Assembly (NCBI GenBank): GCA_001873285.1
Contig: MNYV01000147.1
Span: forward strand, 1-8,600
Reading direction: 5' to 3'
Source of the DNA: Nitrospirae bacterium CG2_30_53_67
GTDB lineage: Bacteria; CG2-30-53-67
Length of the DNA stretch: 8,600 nt
In this document: in pieces, positions 519 to 8,508 of the stretch
Layout of the letters: each line of letters starts with the position of its first letter
Numbering within the stretch: position 1 is the stretch's first letter
Program-made: the position numbers and the translations under genes
The notes under the pieces: model-generated
What the model saw: only the letters and a program-made list of their open reading frames with translations
What the model was told of the DNA's origin: nothing
Database searches by the model: none

Positions 519-1724
519 ATGGCGACTGTAAATAAAGTAGAAACACCCCTTTTGAACGAGCTCGAAAAGGGACCCTGGCCGAGTTTTGTGAAGGAACTGA
601 AAGGGGTGGCTGGAAGAAAGCCGATGATTCAGGACCTGCTGAGGCAGCTCGAACTCTCTTATAAGGAAAAGAGAGGGCACTGGAAGCACGGGGGTCTGGT
701 GGGTGTCATGGGGTACGGCGGAGGCGTGATCGGGAGGTATTCCGATTCCCCGGACAAGTTTCCGGCCTGCGCTCACTTCCACACGATGCGTGTGAACCAG
801 CCGTCCGGATGGTTCTACACATCCAAGGCATTGCGGGAGCTCTGCGACATCTGGGATGCGCACGGTTCAGGGATGACCAATATGCACGGCTCAACAGGCG
901 ACTGCGTTTTTCTGGGGACCACCACGGAGGAACTGGAGCCGATTTTCAAGGAATTGACCGACAAAGGCTGGGACCTGGGAGGTTCGGGCTCGGATGTCCG
1001 GACCCCGAGCTGCTGCAACGGGCCGGCGCGCTGTGAGTACGCCTGCTATGACACCATGGACATGTGCTATAACATCACCATGGCCTACCAGGATGAACTG
1101 CACCGTCCCGCCTTCGCCTACAAGTGGAAATTCAAATTCTCCGGCTGTCCCAATGATTGCGTCGCCTCCATTGCGAGGTCAGACTTCTCCGTGATCGGGA
1201 CTTGGCGGGATGACATCAGGATCGACCAGGCTGCGGTCAAGGCATACTCGGATTCGGGGATGGACATCAGGGCCGACGTGATCCGGAAATGCCCGACGGC
1301 CTGCATGGGCTTTGACGGGAAGGCGATCAAAATAGATAATAAGCAGTGCAACCGCTGCATGCACTGCATCAATGTCATGCCCAAGGCCCTCCGGCCGGGC
1401 AAGGACACCGGGGCCACCATTCTGATCGGCGCCAAGGCCCCGATTATTGAAGGGGCGCTCCTCGCCTCGGTCCTGGTCCCCTTCATGAAGCTGAGCAAAG
1501 AGGACGATTACAAGGAGTTCAAGGATCTCGTCGGACGGATCTGGGAGTTCTGGGATGAACACGGCGTCAGCCGCGAAAGGATCGGAGAGTGCATCCAGCG
1601 CGTGGGCCTCGGAAATTTCATCGAAGAGATCGGTGTGGATCCTATCCCTGAAATGGTGATGCATCCGAGAGCCAACCCCTACATCTTCTACGAAGAGTAC
1701 TTCGAAGAAGGGGATGAATCATAG
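519..1724 (+). CDS. dsrA: Dissimilatory sulfite reductase alpha subunit DsrA
   Basis: This is the alpha subunit of the cytoplasmic alpha2beta2 siroheme enzyme that reduces sulfite to a DsrC-bound trisulfide in sulfite/sulfate respiration. The 401-residue product has the siroheme-[4Fe-4S] cysteines as C166-x5-C172 and C210-x3-C214, in the contexts SCCNGPARC and GCPNDC. An inserted ferredoxin domain follows with C258, C277, C280 and C283. The spacings between these (44 residues from first to third siroheme-site Cys; 19 within the ferredoxin set) match those I recall for the Desulfovibrio enzyme. The protein is somewhat shorter than Desulfovibrio DsrA (about 437), consistent with small loop deletions; no key residue is missing. 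The ATG at 519 is preceded by AGGAAAGGAG. dsrB follows 83 bases later, and the intact active site plus nearby dsrD support the reductive type. Confidence 0.97.
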
Positions 1725-1807
1725 AAGCAGGCAAGGAGACAAACGGGAAATCATAACAATAACAATATGGATAACGGATTCAGAAATCAAAGAAGGAGGT
1801 AATCAAC

Positions 1808-2893
1808 ATGGCAGCACCCACTGCACCAAGAAAAACCGATCTCGGACCGCCGCATTATGAACAGTTTCTCCCTCCCGTCATCAAGAAAAATTACGGGAAG
1901 TGGAAATATCATGAAATAGTCAAACCCGGCGTTTTGGTTCATGTATCGGAATCCGGAGACAAAATTTATTCGGTCCGCGCCGGATCGCCGAGACTGATCA
2001 GTGTGGACACGATCCGGATGTTCGCGGATCTGGCCGACAAGTACTGCGGAGGTTATCTCCGCTTTACCAGCCGGAACAATGTGGAATTCCTGCTGGACCA
2101 GCAGAAGAATATCGATCCCCTGATCAAGGATTTAAAGGCCAAGGGTTATCCCGTCGGAGGGACCGGCAGCTCCATATCGAACATCATCCACACACAGGGA
2201 TGGGTGCACTGCCATTCCGCGGCCACCGATGTGTCCGGGGTGGTGAAGTCCCTGATGGATGAGCTTTACGAGTATTTCGTGGATATGAAACTTCCCCACA
2301 AGCTCAAAATCGCGGCGGCCTGCTGCCTCAACATGTGCGGGGCCGTTCACTGTTCCGACATTGCGATCCTGGGCGTTCACAGGCGTCCGCCCAAGATTCA
2401 GCATGAAAACGTATCCAACATCTGCGAGATACCGAACACGGTTTCGGCCTGTCCCACGGCGGCCATCCGGCCTACGACGGTCAACGGCAAGCCGAGCGTA
2501 CAGATTGATGAAGACCGCTGTATGTTCTGCGCCAACTGTTTCACGGTCTGTCCGGCCATGCCGATTGCGGATCCCTTGAACGACGGGATTTCGATCTGGG
2601 TGGGCGGGAAGGTCAGTAACGCCCGGACCGAGCCTAAGTTCACCAAACTGGCCGTCCCATTCATTCCGAACAACCCGCCGCGATGGCCCGAGGTGACCTC
2701 TACGGTGAAGAACATCGTGAAGGTCTATGCATCGGACGGCCGGAGGTATGAGCGGCTCAGTGAGTGGATTGACCGGATCGGCTGGCCCAAGTTTTTCAGC
2801 ATGACCGGTCTTGAATTCACCAAGTATCATATTGATGACTTCAAGCATGCCGGCGAGACCTTCAAGAGATCCACGCATATTAAATTTCAGTAA
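1808..2893 (+). CDS. dsrB: Dissimilatory sulfite reductase beta subunit DsrB
   Basis: This is the beta partner of DsrA; in known structures the catalytic siroheme sites sit at the alpha/beta interface. The 361-residue product carries C135 ([11 protein letters not shown]) and C172-C173-x3-C177 (ACCLNMC), the beta-type siroheme/[4Fe-4S] set with a 37-residue gap between the first two, as in characterised DsrB. A ferredoxin insert follows with C215, C238, C241 and C244, in SACPTAA and [12 protein letters not shown]. Length is normal for the family. The start at 1808 has a near-perfect Shine-Dalgarno, AAGGAGGT, seven bases upstream. That is stronger than the dsrA site and suggests independent initiation despite the 83-base gap. 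dsrD follows after 14 bases, so the three form a tight unit. Confidence 0.97.
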
Positions 2894-2907
2894 AGGGGGG
2901 CCAAAGA

Positions 2908-3159
2908 ATGGCAGATAAAATGTCTGTCGAAGCAATTGCGGATGCCATGTTCAATATCGTAAAACAGTATGCCGGGAAGAAGCGGTACAAGGCCGGCGAT
3001 CTGACCAAGGAAATCCTCTCCACGTACGGGGACAAGGTCGATAAGCAGGATTGCAAGACGGCCATTCGGACTCTTATGGATTCCGGGCGCTGTATTTACG
3101 GTTATGCAGGCGGGAGCTTCATTGCCCTTCCCGGTACAGAAGGGGCTGCCAAAGGATAA
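2908..3159 (+). CDS. dsrD: Sulfite reductase activator DsrD
   Basis: This encodes an 83-residue winged-helix protein, close to the usual length of about 80 for DsrD. The family is small, cytoplasmic and nearly always next to dsrAB in reductive-type organisms. Published work describes DsrD as an allosteric activator that speeds sulfite reduction by DsrAB; an earlier view as a DNA-binding regulator rested on the fold. Visible features are the helical N-terminus (MSVEAIADAMFNIV), a lysine-rich turn (AGKKRYKAGDLTKEIL) and the wing-like end GRCIYGYAGGSFIALPG. The ATG is 14 bases after the dsrB stop, with a purine-rich AAAGGGGG before it. The stop codon is buried in a 9-bp hairpin. Its presence is the best local marker that this DsrAB works in the sulfite-reducing direction. 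Confidence 0.93.
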   Translation: MADKMSVEAIADAMFNIVKQYAGKKRYKAGDLTKEILSTYGDKVDKQDCKTAIRTLMDSGRCIYGYAGGSFIALPGTEGAAKG

Positions 3160-3178
3160 AGGTCGTTTTCCTTTATCC
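3154..3178 (+). other. Hairpin over the dsrD stop codon
   Basis: GGATAAAGG at 3154-3162 pairs perfectly with CCTTTATCC at 3170-3178 around a 7-base loop (TCGTTTT). The TAA at 3157-3159 is inside the left arm. There is no T-tract directly after the right arm, so it is more likely to stabilise the 3' end of the dsrABD message than to terminate by itself. That role is inference. Confidence 0.55.
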
Positions 3179-3220
3179 ATGGCATCCGGCCCTTGTCGGA
3201 CGAAACAAAGTTATTGCATC

Positions 3221-3281
3221 AGACAGCCGGTCGCCTCCGGATTGGAGTACGCCGTTTCTGAGAGCGGCCGGCTGTCTTTTT
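3221..3281 (+). terminator. Intrinsic terminator-like hairpin between dsrD and dsrL
   Basis: AGACAGCCGGTCGC at 3221-3234 pairs with GCGGCCGGCTGTCT at 3264-3277. This makes a 14-bp GC-rich stem with one G-U wobble, followed at once by a run of five T (3277-3281). The loop is long, 29 bases, and holds a small inner stem CTCC/GGAG. The position, 61 bases past the dsrD stop and 45 bases before dsrL, suggests that it ends or attenuates the dsrABD transcript. Genes downstream may then have lower read-through expression or their own promoter. Confidence 0.75.
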
Positions 3282-3325
3282 CGCTCTTGAATGCAGAGTT
3301 CTGCTCTCAAGAAGGAGTATGTCTT

Positions 3326-5014
3326 ATGGCACTACAGGTCAAGAAAAAGAAAAGAACATTAGGCGCTCGTGTCGGTGGGAAAGGCGGTGGAGAGTCTTCC
3401 AATCTAAGGCCGAAATATTCGCCAAAGACCCCGCCGTGTACATTCACCTGCCCAAGCAGTGAAGACATACGAGGGTACCTGACTTATATCGCTCAGTCGG
3501 AAAGCTACAACCGTTCTTATGATGAATCCTTCAAAGAGGCCTGGTCCATCATCACCCACAACAATCCCTTCCCTGCGGTCATGGGGAGGGTATGCCCGCA
3601 CCCCTGCGAGGGCGAATGCAACCGGAAGGGGAAGGACGTGGCCGTGGGGATCAACAGCATGGAGCGGTTCGTCGGCGATTACGGCATTCAGCACAAACTC
3701 CCTTTGAAAAAATTGAACGAGGGGACATTCAGTGAGAAGGTGGCCGTCATCGGGGCAGGCCCCTCGGGTCTTTCCTGTGCTTATCAGCTCGCCAGACAGG
3801 GATACCAGGTGACCGTTTTCGAGAGGTTTGACAAGGGCGGAGGTATGCTCCGTTTTGGAATTCCCATCTACCGTCTTCCCGAAGAGATCCTGGATGCCGA
3901 GATTCGGAGGATTGAAGATCTGGGTGTGGAAATCAAATACAATATAAAGATCGGCAAGGACATCACGTTTGAAGATCTCCAGAGTGAGTACAAGGCCGTC
4001 TATGTCTCTATCGGGGCCCACACCGGCTGGAACATGAATATTCCGGGTGAGGATGCCGAAAACGTTTGGACGGGCGCTGACTTCCTGCACAAGGTCAACG
4101 TCGGCGAACGATCGGATATCGGCAAGAAGGTGGTGGTCGTCGGCGGAGGCAATACCGCGATCGATGCGGCCATGAGCTCTCTCAGGATGGGGGCCGATGT
4201 GACCATCCTCTACCGCCGGACCAAGAACGAGATGCCGGCCATCGAGCATGAGATCGCCCTTGCCGAGGAAGATGGGATTCAATTTGAATTTCTGGCCGCT
4301 CCGGTAGAAATCATCAAGAATGGAAACGGAAAGGCCGTTCAGCTCAAGGCCATTCGCATGGAACTGGGTGAACCGGATGCGTCCGGAAGAAGGCGGCCTG
4401 TTCCTCTGCCTGGCTCGGAATATACCATGGACGTGACGGCCGTTATATCGGCCATCGGCCAGACCCCGGATTATGAAGGACTGGAGAGGTTGAAGAACCA
4501 GAAGGGGTGGGTCACCGCTAATGAGGACGGAACCACCGATGTTCCCGGCGTTTTTGCAGGCGGGGATGTGACCGTGGGACTCGGGATTGCGACGCAGGCC
4601 ATCGGCCTGGGCGCCAAGACCGCCCGCGCGATCCATCATTATCTGAGGGGAACCCAGCCGGAGAAGGCGGATGAACTTCCAGTGATCCGGTATGACAAGA
4701 TGAATCTCAATCACTATGTCCCGCTGGAGAGAACCCAGGTTAAGTCTCTCCCTGTGGAAGAACGGAAAGACAACTTTAAAGAGATTCATTTCACGCTGGA
4801 GGAGGCACAGGCCGTTGAGGAATCCAAGAGATGCCTGAGCTGCGGCAAGTGTTTTGATTGTGACAACTGTTTCACCTACTGCTCCGACAGCGCGGTCAAA
4901 AAGCTCTCCAAGGATATGCCTGTGGGGCAGCACTATGAGTTCCACCTGGAGACCTGCCAGGGCTGCAAAAAGTGCGCCGAAGAGTGCCCCTGCGGCTATA
5001 TCGACATGATCTAA
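3326..5014 (+). CDS. dsrL: DsrL-like NAD(P)H:acceptor iron-sulfur flavoprotein (glutamate synthase small-chain type)
   Basis: The 562-residue cytoplasmic protein has the GltD/NfnB-type fold. An N-terminal cysteine region (C38, C42, C90, C94, C98) is followed by an FAD-binding GAGPSG at 143-148 and an NAD(P)-binding GGGNTAID at 273-280 with YRRTKNEMPA after it. A second FAD contact is in GVFAGGD (408-414). The C-terminal ferredoxin domain has CxxCxxCxxxC sets at 509-519 and 544-554. That added domain and the dsr context are what distinguish DsrL from plain GltD. DsrL links NAD(P)H and DsrAB in sulfur oxidisers, and related forms occur beside reductive DsrAB. It is shorter than the Allochromatium protein (about 650). 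I chose ATG 3326 because AAGGAG lies eight bases upstream; the frame stays open 74 codons further, but that part overlaps dsrD and the terminator. Alternative: another GltD-like ferredoxin:NAD(P)H oxidoreductase. Confidence 0.75.
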   Translation: MALQVKKKKRTLGARVGGKGGGESSNLRPKYSPKTPPCTFTCPSSEDIRGYLTYIAQSESYNRSYDESFKEAWSIITHNNPFPAVMGRVCPHPCEGECNRKGKDVAVGINSMERFVGDYGIQHKLPLKKLNEGTFSEKVAVIGAGPSGLSCAYQLARQGYQVTVFERFDKGGGMLRFGIPIYRLPEEILDAEIRRIEDLGVEIKYNIKIGKDITFEDLQSEYKAVYVSIGAHTGWNMNIPGEDAENVWTGADFLHKVNVGERSDIGKKVVVVGGGNTAIDAAMSSLRMGADVTILYRRTKNEMPAIEHEIALAEEDGIQFEFLAAPVEIIKNGNGKAVQLKAIRMELGEPDASGRRRPVPLPGSEYTMDVTAVISAIGQTPDYEGLERLKNQKGWVTANEDGTTDVPGVFAGGDVTVGLGIATQAIGLGAKTARAIHHYLRGTQPEKADELPVIRYDKMNLNHYVPLERTQVKSLPVEERKDNFKEIHFTLEEAQAVEESKRCLSCGKCFDCDNCFTYCSDSAVKKLSKDMPVGQHYEFHLETCQGCKKCAEECPCGYIDMI

Positions 5015-5047
5015 TATTTTGTCCTCCTGAAAAGAGGAGAAAATATT
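5013..5047 (+). other. Hairpin in the gap after dsrL
   Basis: AATATTTT at 5013-5020 pairs with AAAATATT at 5040-5047, and TCCTC at 5022-5026 pairs with GAGGA at 5034-5038, with one G-G mismatch between the two helices and a 7-base loop. It begins within the dsrL stop codon. No T-run follows the right arm, so termination is doubtful; an mRNA processing or stabilising element is possible. The GAGGAG in the right arm is too far from the next start to be its ribosome binding site. Confidence 0.5.
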
Positions 5048-5092
5048 GTTCAAGATTCTTTAATGAAGTGGAGCGGCGCCAAGGAGTGGACC

Positions 5093-5560
5093 ATGGAAGA
5101 GATAACCTTTAGTGAAATCATCAGCTATGCCAAGATCGCAGAAGACAACGCAAAGAAGTTTTACCTGGATGCGGCCGATATCGCAAGCCTGAGCCATGTG
5201 AAGGAATTTCTCAAGTCCCTGGCCGGCGAGGAACAGAGCCACTACGACCGCCTGGATGCCCTGCAGAAAAACCTCAAGAAAAAGGGTATCGTGCCGAAGG
5301 TGCATGAGGCTATTCATAACTTCGGGTACGCCGACTACATCAAACCTGCGGGTCAACTGGATGAAGGCGCCTCCTACAAGGATGTTCTGGAGGCGGCCAT
5401 GGCCAAGGAGAAGGAAGCGATCCAGAGTTATGACAAGTTTTCCCGGTATGTGGATGATGCCGAGGCCAAGAAACTCTTCAATCTTCTGGCCCAGGAGGAG
5501 AAAAAGCATCTCAAGCGTTTTGAAGAGGAGTATGACGACCTCCAGGATCAGAAATATTAA
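5093..5560 (+). CDS. Rubrerythrin-like ferritin-domain diiron protein
   Basis: The 155-residue product is almost entirely helical, and the sequence shows two internal halves of a four-helix bundle. Probable diiron ligands follow the rubrerythrin pattern: E17 (EDNAKKFY), E47 and H50 (EEQSH), E106 (EKEAIQSY), E136 and H139 (EEKKH). There is no C-terminal rubredoxin domain (no CxxC at all), so it is a stand-alone ferritin-like protein, not full rubrerythrin. Such proteins are generally linked to peroxide or oxygen protection and iron handling in anaerobes; the exact reaction is not shown here. I chose ATG 5093 because AAGGAG lies six bases upstream; an in-frame ATG at 5063 would add ten residues (MKWSGAKEWT) but has no ribosome binding site. 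It sits between dsrL and nfnA, 30 bases before the latter, so it is probably cotranscribed. Confidence 0.85.
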   Translation: MEEITFSEIISYAKIAEDNAKKFYLDAADIASLSHVKEFLKSLAGEEQSHYDRLDALQKNLKKKGIVPKVHEAIHNFGYADYIKPAGQLDEGASYKDVLEAAMAKEKEAIQSYDKFSRYVDDAEAKKLFNLLAQEEKKHLKRFEEEYDDLQDQKY

Positions 5561-5590
5561 ACCGTAACCTGAGTGTAAGGTAGAAAACCG

Positions 5591-6442
5591 ATGTTTGAAA
5601 TATTAGAGAAGAAAGTCTGGTCCGATGAAGCGCCGAAGATCAAGGAATTCATGGTCAAGGCCCCGGAGATTGCGAAGGCCCATCACGCAGGCCAGTTCAT
5701 CATCCTGATCGTGGATGAGCATGGGGAGAGAATACCGCTGACCATCGCCGATACGGACGTGCAGAGGGGGACCATCAATATCCTCTTCCAGGAGGTCGGG
5801 AAGTCGACGATGTGCCTCGGCCTGCTCAACAAAGGCGGCCGTATCCATCATGTCTCCGGGCCTCTGGGCAAGCCCACGCATATTGAGAAGTTCGGCACGG
5901 TGGTGTGCGTGGGCGGCGGGATCGGGATCGCCCCGGTCCATCCGATCGCCAAGGCCATGAAGGACGCCGGAAACAAGGTGATCTCGATCCTGGGTTCCCG
6001 CACCAGGAACCTTCTGATCTATGAAGATAAGATGAAAAAAGTCAGCCATGAGATCCGGATCACGACAGACGACGGGTCCTATGGCCGGCATGGCTTTGTC
6101 ACGGACGAACTGAAGCATATGATCGAGGTGGAGAAGATCCCCATCGACTTGGTTGTGGTCATCGGGCCGCCCATCATGATGAAGTTCGTCTGCAAGGTCA
6201 CGGAGCCGTATAAGATCAAGACCTTTGTCAGCTTGAACACAATCATGGTAGACGGGACCGGTATGTGCGGCGCCTGCCGGGTGACCGTGGGCGGAAAGAC
6301 CAAGTTCGTTTGTGTGGATGGTCCTGAATTCGACGGCCATCAGGTTGATTTCGAAGAGATGATGATGCGCCAGCGGCAGTATCTTCCTGAGGAAAAACTG
6401 GCAAAAGAGATATGCGAGAAGCAGACCTGCCGCCAGGCTTGA
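5591..6442 (+). CDS. nfnA: NADH-dependent ferredoxin:NADP+ oxidoreductase small subunit NfnA
   Basis: This is the small subunit of the cytoplasmic electron-bifurcating transhydrogenase that couples NADH, NADPH and ferredoxin; it is also called the sulfide dehydrogenase or dihydroorotate dehydrogenase electron-transfer-like subunit. The 283 residues give an N-terminal FAD-binding barrel with RIPLTIAD (47-54), then the nucleotide-binding GGGIGIAP (108-115). The C-terminal [2Fe-2S] site has the Nfn signature D221-GTGMC226GAC229 … C241, followed by GPEFDGHQVDF. The aspartate as a probable fourth ligand separates it from all-cysteine PyrK proteins. Length is normal. The ribosome binding site is weak (TAAGGT at 5576-5581), which may mean translation coupled to the upstream ferritin-like gene. 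nfnB follows 40 bases later, the usual NfnAB order. Confidence 0.92.
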   Translation: MFEILEKKVWSDEAPKIKEFMVKAPEIAKAHHAGQFIILIVDEHGERIPLTIADTDVQRGTINILFQEVGKSTMCLGLLNKGGRIHHVSGPLGKPTHIEKFGTVVCVGGGIGIAPVHPIAKAMKDAGNKVISILGSRTRNLLIYEDKMKKVSHEIRITTDDGSYGRHGFVTDELKHMIEVEKIPIDLVVVIGPPIMMKFVCKVTEPYKIKTFVSLNTIMVDGTGMCGACRVTVGGKTKFVCVDGPEFDGHQVDFEEMMMRQRQYLPEEKLAKEICEKQTCRQA

Positions 6443-6482
6443 AAGATTGAATCAAACCATTAAATGAGGATCAAGAGCAATT

Positions 6483-7952
6483 ATGAGTGACGAGAAACCA
6501 ACCAAAGGGAGGCAGGAGACAAAACCCAAGAAGCCGAAGATTCCCAGGCAGCCCATGCCGGAACAGGATCCCCATCAGAGAGCCAAAAATTTCAGTTCCG
6601 TAACCCTCGGCTATAAACTTGAACATGCCGTGACTGAGGCCTCCCGCTGTCTGCAGTGCAAGAAACCCTTTTGCATAACCGGCTGCCCGGTTTCAATCAA
6701 CATCCCGAAGTTCATCAAACTGATCCAGGAAAAGGAGTTTCTGAAGGCCGTCCAGGCTATTAAGGAAACCAATCTTCTGCCTGCGGTCTGCGGGCGTGTC
6801 TGCCCTCAGGAGGATCAGTGTGAGAAGGTCTGTGTCGTGGGAAAGAAAGGAGAACCGGTAGCCATCGGAAGGCTGGAGCGCTTTGTGGCGGACTATGAGG
6901 CGGAACACGGCGAGGTTCCCCTGCCTGAACTCCCGCCGAAGACCGGCAAGAAGGTGGCCGTGGTCGGCGCCGGGCCGGGCGGTTTGACCGTTGCCGGGGA
7001 CCTGATACGGCGGGGTCACGATGTGACCATCTTTGAGGCCTTGCACAAAGCGGGAGGGGTCCTGGTCTACGGCATCCCGGAGTTCCGCCTTCCCAAGGCC
7101 ATTGTGGGTAGAGAGGTGAAGTACCTCCAGAGGCTCGGGGTGGACCTGAGATTGAACCATGTCATCGGGAAGATCCGGACCATCGATCAATTGATGAAGG
7201 AGGATGGATACGATGCCGTGTTCATCGGCAGCGGGGCGGGACTCCCCTGGTTCATGGGCATCCCCGGTGAGAATCTGAACGGGGTCTATTCGGCTAATGA
7301 GTACCTGACCCGGAACAATCTGATGAAGGCCTTTGAGTTTCCGGTTTATGACACTCCCATCAAGAAGTTCAAAAACGTGGCCGTGATCGGAGGCGGTAAC
7401 GTGGCCATGGATTCGGTGCGTACGGCCCTGCGCCTCGGAGCGGATAACGCCTACATCGTCTATCGGCGGTCCAGGACGGAGATGCCCGCCCGGAAGGAGG
7501 AGGTTGATCATGCGGAACATGAAGGGGTTCAGTTCAAAAACCTGACCGCACCGGTCCGTGTCATCGGCAACGAGCAGGGATGGGTGACCGGGCTGGAGTG
7601 CCTGAAGATGGAACTGGGTGAGCCGGATGCGTCGGGCAGACGCCGGCCGGTGCCCATCAAAGGTTCGGAGTTTACCCTCCCGATGGATGCCGTCATCATT
7701 GCCATCGGCACCAGCGCCAACCCCTTGATCGCCCAGACCACGCCGGATCTGAAGCTGAACAAAAAAGGATACATCGAGGTGGAAAACGAAACCACCTGCC
7801 GTACCAGCAAGAAAGGCGTATTTGCCGGCGGGGATATTGTGACCGGGAGCGCTACGGTGATTCTGGCCATGGGCGCAGGGCGGAATGCGGCCAAGGCCAT
7901 CCAGCAGTACCTGCAGACGGGCGAGTGGTGGAAACCCAATGGGAACCAGTAA
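6483..7952 (+). CDS. nfnB: NADPH-binding large subunit NfnB of the bifurcating transhydrogenase
   Basis: This is the large partner of NfnA, carrying the bifurcating FAD and the NADPH site, related to the glutamate synthase small chain and often annotated gltA/gltD or sudA. The 489 residues open with a lysine/proline-rich tail and the family hallmark PMPEQDP (24-30). The N-terminal iron-sulfur region has C56, C59, C64, C68, then C103, C107, C113, C117, followed by GEPVAIGRLERF. The FAD motif is GAGPGG at 162-167; the NADPH motif is GGGNVAMD at 303-310 with YRRSRTEMPA at 327-336; the second FAD contact is in GVFAGGD (445-451). Unlike the DsrL-like protein upstream it has no C-terminal ferredoxin domain. 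The start has only a weak TGAGGA 12 bases upstream. Pairing with nfnA makes NfnB much likelier than true glutamate synthase; no large GltB-type subunit is present here. Confidence 0.9.
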   Translation: MSDEKPTKGRQETKPKKPKIPRQPMPEQDPHQRAKNFSSVTLGYKLEHAVTEASRCLQCKKPFCITGCPVSINIPKFIKLIQEKEFLKAVQAIKETNLLPAVCGRVCPQEDQCEKVCVVGKKGEPVAIGRLERFVADYEAEHGEVPLPELPPKTGKKVAVVGAGPGGLTVAGDLIRRGHDVTIFEALHKAGGVLVYGIPEFRLPKAIVGREVKYLQRLGVDLRLNHVIGKIRTIDQLMKEDGYDAVFIGSGAGLPWFMGIPGENLNGVYSANEYLTRNNLMKAFEFPVYDTPIKKFKNVAVIGGGNVAMDSVRTALRLGADNAYIVYRRSRTEMPARKEEVDHAEHEGVQFKNLTAPVRVIGNEQGWVTGLECLKMELGEPDASGRRRPVPIKGSEFTLPMDAVIIAIGTSANPLIAQTTPDLKLNKKGYIEVENETTCRTSKKGVFAGGDIVTGSATVILAMGAGRNAAKAIQQYLQTGEWWKPNGNQ

Positions 7953-8052: not shown

Positions 8053-8508
8053 ATGAGCTTTAAGTCCATAGAGGATATCATCAAGTACGCTATAGAAAAA
8101 GAAGCAGAGGCGGTGAAGTTCTATACCGATGCGGGAAAGCAGGAGAAATACAGCGCGGCCAGGAAGACCTTTGAGTCCTTTGCCGATGAGGAGAAAAAGC
8201 ACAAGGCCATGCTCGAAAACCTCGATCCCAAAAACGTGGCCGGGTTCAAGCCGGCAGGGATCGCCGACCTCAAGCGCAGCGACTACATGGTTGATATTGC
8301 ATACAAGGCGGGCATGTCCTACCCGGATATCCTGAGGCTGGCTATGAAGCGGGAGGAGAAAGCCAAGAAATTCTATGACGACTGCGCCGGCCGTGTGGAT
8401 GCAGGCGGCCATAAGAAGCTCTTCCAGATGCTCTCGCAGGAAGAGGCCAAACACAAACTGGCGCTTGAAACCCTCTACGACAACATCATGGCAAAAGGCG
8501 GAGATTAA
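8053..8508 (+). CDS. Second rubrerythrin-like ferritin-domain diiron protein
   Basis: The 151-residue helical protein is a paralog of the ferritin-like gene upstream of nfnA. The same ligand pattern is present at nearly the same positions: E17 (EAEAVKFY), E47 and H50 (EEKKH), E101 (EEKAKKFY), E131 and H134 (EEAKH). It also lacks a rubredoxin domain; its only cysteine is C111. The middle segment linking the two halves (NVAGFKPAG…SDYMVDIAYKAGMSYPDI) differs clearly from the first copy apart from the short DYI/DYM and SY motifs, so the duplication is not recent. AAGGAG at 8041-8046 gives a good ribosome binding site six bases before the ATG. It is separated from nfnB by 100 bases with a palindromic repeat, so cotranscription is less certain than for the first copy. 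Likely role: oxygen/peroxide protection or iron handling, inferred from the fold only. Confidence 0.85.
   Translation: MSFKSIEDIIKYAIEKEAEAVKFYTDAGKQEKYSAARKTFESFADEEKKHKAMLENLDPKNVAGFKPAGIADLKRSDYMVDIAYKAGMSYPDILRLAMKREEKAKKFYDDCAGRVDAGGHKKLFQMLSQEEAKHKLALETLYDNIMAKGGD

Follow-up and report, generated by a model that had tools for sequence, protein, structure and literature searches.

Genes for NfnAB and rubrerythrins lie behind reductive dsrABDL in one family of the CG2-30-53-67 lineage: a predicted electron supply for sulfite reduction

From where does a reductive sulfite reductase draw its electrons, and is the source encoded beside it? The question is raised by contig MNYV01000147.1 (C147) of Nitrospirae bacterium CG2_30_53_67, the whole of which (8600 bp) was analysed and is referred to below as the window. 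The genome comprises 2.36 Mb in 183 contigs, and is 95% complete with 1% contamination. On the forward strand the window carries, in order, dsrA, dsrB, a dsrD-like gene, dsrL, rbr1, nfnA, nfnB and rbr2. The linkage of dsr to nfnAB is a conserved trait of one family, and the best explanation available, with a probability of about 0.5, is that the window makes up the 3′ half of a dsr operon that encodes a reductive DsrAB together with its electron supply: NfnAB would provide NADPH, and DsrL-2 would pass the electrons to DsrAB. The features of the window are:

2–106, + strand: 3′ end of a HEAT-repeat-like gene, which continues in frame on contig C153 after dsrH (299-bp overlap)
120–345, no strand: dispersed intergenic repeat between the HEAT gene and dsrA (self-matches in the genome)
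519–1724, + strand: dsrA, reductive type (TIGR02064, 576 bits, cut-off 393; tree)
1808–2893, + strand: dsrB, reductive type (TIGR02066, 526 bits, cut-off 341.5; tree)
2908–3159, + strand: gene for a putative DsrD-like winged-helix protein of 83 aa (place after dsrB; predicted fold)
3326–5014, + strand: dsrL, assigned to type DsrL-2 of reductive loci (domains, motifs, tree)
about 5093–5560, + strand: rbr1, single-domain rubrerythrin-like diiron protein without a rubredoxin domain (Pfam Rubrerythrin, 52 bits)
5591–6442, + strand: nfnA, small subunit with FAD and [2Fe-2S] (PRK06222, 404 bits)
6483–7952, + strand: nfnB, large subunit with FAD, two [4Fe-4S] and an NADPH site with YRR (583 bits to 4ylf_B)
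8053–8508, + strand: rbr2, second single-domain rubrerythrin-like protein (Pfam Rubrerythrin, 51 bits)

The identities of dsrA and dsrB are certain from their profile scores. The start of dsrL was set at 3326 and not at 3104 (the mechanical open reading frame call), since homologues align from 3326 and an AGGAG Shine-Dalgarno site precedes it. The intergenic gaps that separate the dsr, rbr and nfn genes of the window contain no terminator-like site in the + orientation. The initial annotation had placed dsrABD, a DsrL-like gene and nfnAB together on one strand, and profiles and matches in the PDB bear out these names, except that dsrD is named mainly from position and fold; it had overlooked the two rubrerythrins, the 3′ end of the HEAT gene and the dispersed repeat.

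Conservation of the linkage was followed in a sample of eight genomes of the phylum, all with dsrAB, six of them in one family (f1, including the window genome) and two in a sister family (f2). The order dsrA-B-D-L-rbr1-nfnA-nfnB is identical in all six f1 genomes, which span three genera and whose proteins are 63–94% identical to those of the window, a recurrence that rules out a chance arrangement. Each f1 genome has one strong NfnA match, always inside the dsr locus, while neither f2 genome has any (0/2). Gene rbr1 is kept in 6/6; rbr2 adjoins nfnB in four of the six, and nfnAB stays in the two that are without it. Misassembly or faulty binning was also rejected as an explanation, because the same order occurs in six genomes, one of which carries both of its dsr sets on a single contig (CAKKPE010000090.1). 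The linkage in related genomes on which the initial annotation had staked its proposal is therefore real, but, among the loci compared, confined to this family. About 29 reductive dsrAB(D)L loci of the DsrL-2C kind in named genomes of other phyla differ from the window in that neither nfnA nor nfnB lies in such flanking sequence as is available, which on several short contigs is limited. Most of these organisms encode NfnA elsewhere: it was found in 24 of 33 genomes with such loci, away from the dsr locus, and in 39 of the 51 Zixibacteria genomes with dsrB, where the nearest dsrB–NfnA distance (derived from listed coordinates) is about 39 kb when both are on one contig. The idea that nfnAB linkage is a general feature of DsrL-2 was rejected on these grounds. 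A literature search for DsrL or DsrAB together with NfnAB or a transhydrogenase returned no report of the linkage, most subscription papers lying outside that search.

The flavoprotein encoded between the dsrD-like gene and rbr1 has the domains expected of a DsrL: an N-terminal ferredoxin domain (Fer4_20), an FAD domain with an embedded NAD(P) domain (Pyr_redox_2), a linker, and a C-terminal Fer4 domain for two [4Fe-4S] clusters. YRR occurs at residue 296 in the NADP site, and S-N-L-R precedes PPC...CP, placing Ser at the position of NfnB Cys39 and Arg at that of Cys42 (matched by eye). YRR and the Ser/Arg ligand pattern were described for DsrL-2 of reductive loci by Loffler et al. 2020 (PMC7596348), and in D. 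amilsii a DsrL-2 bearing YRR uses NADP(H) but not NAD(H) (PMC7596348). In a tree built without experimentally characterised reference DsrL, the window protein joins the DsrL proteins of dsrD-bearing loci and stands apart from both NfnB and the DsrL of oxidative loci (family clade 99; deeper forks 84–88; the oxidative set, elsewhere in the tree, 98–99). Domain order, motifs and tree led to rejection of a GltD or NfnB identity, the alternative raised in the initial annotation, and together they indicate a true DsrL of the NADPH type, DsrL-2, reductive subgroup DsrL-2C. DsrL of the f2 genomes is without YRR. DsrL-2-like proteins with no dsrAB in the flank were seen at seven loci (L064, L070, L074, L076, L079, L082 and L083) of Gammaproteobacteria, Gemmatimonadota and Myxococcota; they nest in the reductive DsrL-2 clade and may have taken another role.

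DsrAB of the window is of the reductive bacterial type, both by its scores above the TIGR02064 and TIGR02066 cut-offs and by its place in the DsrAB tree. Its companions there are the five sister loci, every locus with a recognised dsrD falls in that same half of the tree, and the split between the reductive and oxidative halves has a support of 100. Tree placement of DsrA, DsrB and DsrL, as suggested in the initial annotation, thus gave a reductive DsrAB with a type 2 DsrL. The small protein encoded after dsrB is less easily named. Its predicted structure (predicted local distance difference test score, pLDDT, 91) has a winged-helix fold and can be superposed on D. vulgaris DsrD (1ucr) with Z 8.2 and a root-mean-square deviation of 2.4 Å over 70 residues, but other winged helices score up to Z 10.1 against the model, so the match to 1ucr is not specific (VIA-align). 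Foldseek gave no match below 0.001 for the model, with 1ucr absent from the top 50, and profile searches matched the protein neither to Pfam DsrD (PF08679) nor to DsrD in the PDB. It belongs to a family of 28 members across phyla, of which the Pfam DsrD model matches one (1/28, E 0.095). The DsrD name would therefore rest mainly on position and fold, sequence profiles missing the protein; and as DsrD-like proteins of non-classical dsr loci are near-invisible to the Pfam model, surveys that use it would overlook them. Both f2 genomes have a second dsrA behind dsrL without a second dsrB, in the order dsrA-dsrB-dsrL-dsrA′ (L025:6634–7833, −; L026:3941–4846, +), and in genome G007 this second copy is 88% identical to the first dsrA.

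The transhydrogenase subunits closely resemble those of Thermotoga maritima and Pyrococcus furiosus NfnAB (NfnI), sharing their subunits, cluster ligands and NADPH motif. NfnA scores 323 bits to P. furiosus NfnI (5jca_S), with identical [2Fe-2S] ligands (DGTGMCGAC and a downstream Cys), while NfnB scores 583 bits to T. maritima NfnB (4ylf_B) and retains all eight ligands (C39, C42, C47, C51, C90, C96, C100 and E117, T. maritima numbering). Both are nearer to NfnI than to the 5vj7 paralogue. A complete NfnAB is thus predicted, with conserved cluster ligands and, presumably, the capacity for bifurcation and confurcation. Unlike NfnI of T. maritima and P. furiosus, it is encoded inside a dsr operon together with single-domain rubrerythrins. 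Both of these have two E...ExxH diiron half-sites and no rubredoxin domain, judged from the translations and from Pfam, where Rubrerythrin is the only match; rbr1 has no cysteine, and its Shine-Dalgarno site is at 5093.

The upstream part of the operon came to light when Dsr proteins from a sister genome were used as queries against the window genome. Contig C153 carries an RsbRD-type gene, dsrM, K, J, O and P, dsrC, dsrE, F and H, and a HEAT-type gene, and its final 299 bases are exactly the first 299 bases of the window. As this overlap includes unique HEAT coding sequence, the two contigs are adjacent, giving a same-strand run of about 18 kb: RsbRD-dsrMKJOP-C-EFH-HEAT-dsrABDL-rbr-nfnA-nfnB-rbr. 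Two sister genomes have the upstream dsr genes and the dsrABDL-nfnAB genes contiguous on one contig. The initial annotation had suggested that the module might act alongside membrane DsrMKJOP, and the genes for the latter lie upstream in the same run. The names RsbRD, HEAT, dsrC, dsrF, dsrH and dsrM, K, J, O and P were given solely from translations and gene order; dsrE matches 2hy5 in the PDB with 123 bits, and it has the type-I active-site region, including the cysteine that matches A. vinosum DsrE. DsrF-like proteins also occur outside the dsrEFH set, at G000:C182:4–249 (66% identity) and, by eye, at L018:17245–17607 (−); in genome G005 such a gene lies directly behind nfnB on the opposite strand. 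The repeat at 120–345 has 81 matching pieces (E ≤ 0.001) on several dozen contigs of its own genome, where it occurs in several dozen full or partial copies, and contains direct and inverted repeats. It probably caused the contig break, and from its place between HEAT and dsrA it may divide two transcription units.

The genome encodes further parts of both directions of sulfur metabolism. Contig C120 carries sat, aprB, aprA, qmoC and two genes for HdrA-like proteins at the QmoA and QmoB positions, so that qmo-type genes, about which the initial annotation had asked, accompany dsrMKJOP. A second dsr set, on contig C37 (L006), comprises dsrA (4200–5474), dsrB (from 3107) and dsrL (1285–3090), all on the − strand and without dsrD, and falls in the DsrAB tree among Nitrospirota and Nitrospinota loci of the oxidative type. 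Since a sister genome carries the two sets on a single contig, the mixed reductive and oxidative content is not a binning artefact. The second DsrL has YRR, a Cys at the distal ligand (S-W-K-C) and an insertion of about 30 residues in the NAD(P) domain, and thereby mixes published type markers, the insertion being of the kind described for DsrL-1A. DsrL of L040 (CG2-30-53-67_02) falls inside the clade of f1 second-set DsrL. The formate dehydrogenase-N alpha gene of L006 is interrupted in frame by a TGA (14738–14740) where selenocysteine is normally encoded, and the organism therefore probably uses selenocysteine.

With these parts, the following route can be proposed. NfnAB would confurcate NADH and reduced ferredoxin to 2 NADPH, as is established for NfnAB in general. 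A ferredoxin pool is expected, since RnfC is present in all eight genomes of the phylum and acetyl-CoA synthase in all six of f1. DsrL-2 would oxidise the NADPH and reduce DsrAB; NADPH use has been shown for D. amilsii DsrL-2 (PMC7596348), and electron transfer from NADPH to DsrAB by the window protein is predicted. DsrAB would take sulfite through its first two-electron reduction, on DsrC, giving the DsrC trisulfide, which DsrMKJOP would reduce from the quinone pool to finish the reduction. That the sulfite reductase system draws on ferredoxin directly is no more than an inference. The rubrerythrins are probably peroxidases on the same NAD(P)H and ferredoxin pool, shielding the Fe-S enzymes, and NfnAB could take the part of FNR as their electron donor, by analogy with the rubredoxin-less rubrerythrin of Hydrogenobacter (ferriperoxin), a peroxidase fed from NADPH via FNR (PMC3317640).

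In favour of this route are the identical order in six of six genomes despite the divergence of their proteins, the single nfnA, and a DsrL with YRR and the Arg ligand. Further support comes from the grouping of DsrAB with dsrD-bearing reductive loci, and from sat, aprAB and the qmo-type genes. No PntA above the cut-off was found in f1, whereas both f2 genomes, which are without NfnAB, acetyl-CoA synthase and a YRR-type DsrL, have PntA-like matches, one of them above it; this contrast fits NADPH-type DsrL and NfnAB going together, as a single split on the tree. Several points weigh on the other side. All six linked genomes belong to one family, so the linkage counts as a single evolutionary event; most other DsrL-2 organisms do without it; the sole NfnAB must also serve biosynthesis; and an oxidative capacity is suggested as well, both by the type I dsrEFH in the same operon and by the additional rdsrABL genes. 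A stronger version, in which NfnAB is a bifurcating partner dedicated to dsr and allows DsrL-2/DsrAB to run both ways (sulfite reduction driven by NADH and ferredoxin; ferredoxin reduction for acetyl-CoA-pathway CO2 fixation driven by sulfide oxidation), Dsr and Nfn having been joined at least twice (here and, fused, in Chromatiaceae), is tentative. The Chromatiaceae case is a locus (L061) with dsrB-dsrL(YRR)-dsrM-dsrK-octaheme cytochrome-cytochrome b, followed by a 1033-aa NfnA-NfnB-ferritin fusion (L061:12627–15725) 6.2 kb behind dsrL. It spans nearly the full length of the fusion model PRK12775 (1634 bits, under the strict cut-off of 1895). The three modules of such fusions are separate genes in the window, and in L061 the fusion stands behind an oxidative-type dsrBL, past dsrMK; it may go with the octaheme cytochrome and not with dsr, and it is a single case.

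Electrons might instead flow in reverse, the operon also, or only, oxidising sulfur: DsrEFH would load DsrC, DsrAB would make sulfite, DsrL-2 would reduce NADP+, and NfnAB would bifurcate NADPH to NADH and reduced ferredoxin for Wood-Ljungdahl CO2 fixation. The same run includes the type-I dsrE, acetyl-CoA synthase follows the linkage (6/6 f1, 0/2 f2), and the Chromatiaceae cluster joins a YRR-type dsrL to the NfnA-NfnB-ferritin fusion. In cable bacteria, sulfide oxidation seems to employ a DsrAB of the reductive type (PMC13293266), and the literature credits the lineage with an ability to change direction (PMC10591310, PMC11406059). However, the DsrAB of the operon lies in the reductive clade and is accompanied by a DsrD-like protein, oxidation has a separate dsrAB-dsrL set of the oxidative type in the genome, and the carbon pathway could run either way; reverse flow is thus possible but rather unlikely.

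It is doubtful that nfnAB is present only as housekeeping, a single transhydrogenase for general NADPH that was inserted once behind dsrL, inherited, and co-expressed with dsr without functional coupling. One copy per genome, restriction to one family, and the role of NfnAB as general redox housekeeping in sulfate reducers (PMC4215793) all agree with this; yet the order has been kept over three genera, and an NADPH-type DsrL is paired with the only NADPH-forming transhydrogenase found, as functional coupling predicts. Least probable is a stress module for NAD(P)H-driven peroxide removal that came by chance to lie behind dsrABDL, with no special link between NfnAB and DsrL: NCBIfam PRK12775 is a natural fusion of NfnA, NfnB and ferritin whose ferritin part matches rbr2, a fused copy occurs in L061 and a rubrerythrin without rubredoxin depends on a partner of the FNR type (PMC3317640), but two of the six genomes retain nfnAB with no rbr2 beside nfnB, and NfnAB loci of other phyla have no adjoining rubrerythrin of this kind within the roughly 1.5 kb examined.

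A local supply of NADPH to reductive DsrAB thus remains the preferred reading, and it builds on a locus type already known. The initial annotation regarded dsrD together with dsrL as unusual, but the combination is on record, as the DsrL-2C arrangement, for many phyla, among them Acidobacteriota, Zixibacteria, Bacteroidota (Kapabacteria) and Myxococcota, with the same reductive DsrAB, dsrD position, YRR/Arg DsrL-2 and gene order (PMC7596348, PMC10591310). For CG2-30-53-67, dsrABDL-2 and dual dsr sets are also published (PMC7596348, PMC10591310); going by the accessible parts of these sources, the dsrABDL-2 and rdsrABL-2 pair corresponds to the two sets of the window genome, dsrTMKJOPCEFH is put ‘elsewhere in the genome’, whereas here it directly precedes dsrABDL, and nfnAB and rubrerythrins at the dsr locus are not mentioned. 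As far as the literature searched shows, the linkage of nfnAB and rubrerythrins to dsr, the contiguity of dsrMKJOP-C-EFH with dsrABDL-nfnAB, and the presence of both dsr sets on CAKKPE010000090.1 are new. With DsrAB, an NADPH-type DsrL and the sole NfnAB in one operon, the passage of electrons from ferredoxin and NADH to sulfite becomes testable, with a natural set of proteins for its reconstitution. Going by this operon, sulfur respiration in an uncultured groundwater lineage may be self-contained in its electron supply.

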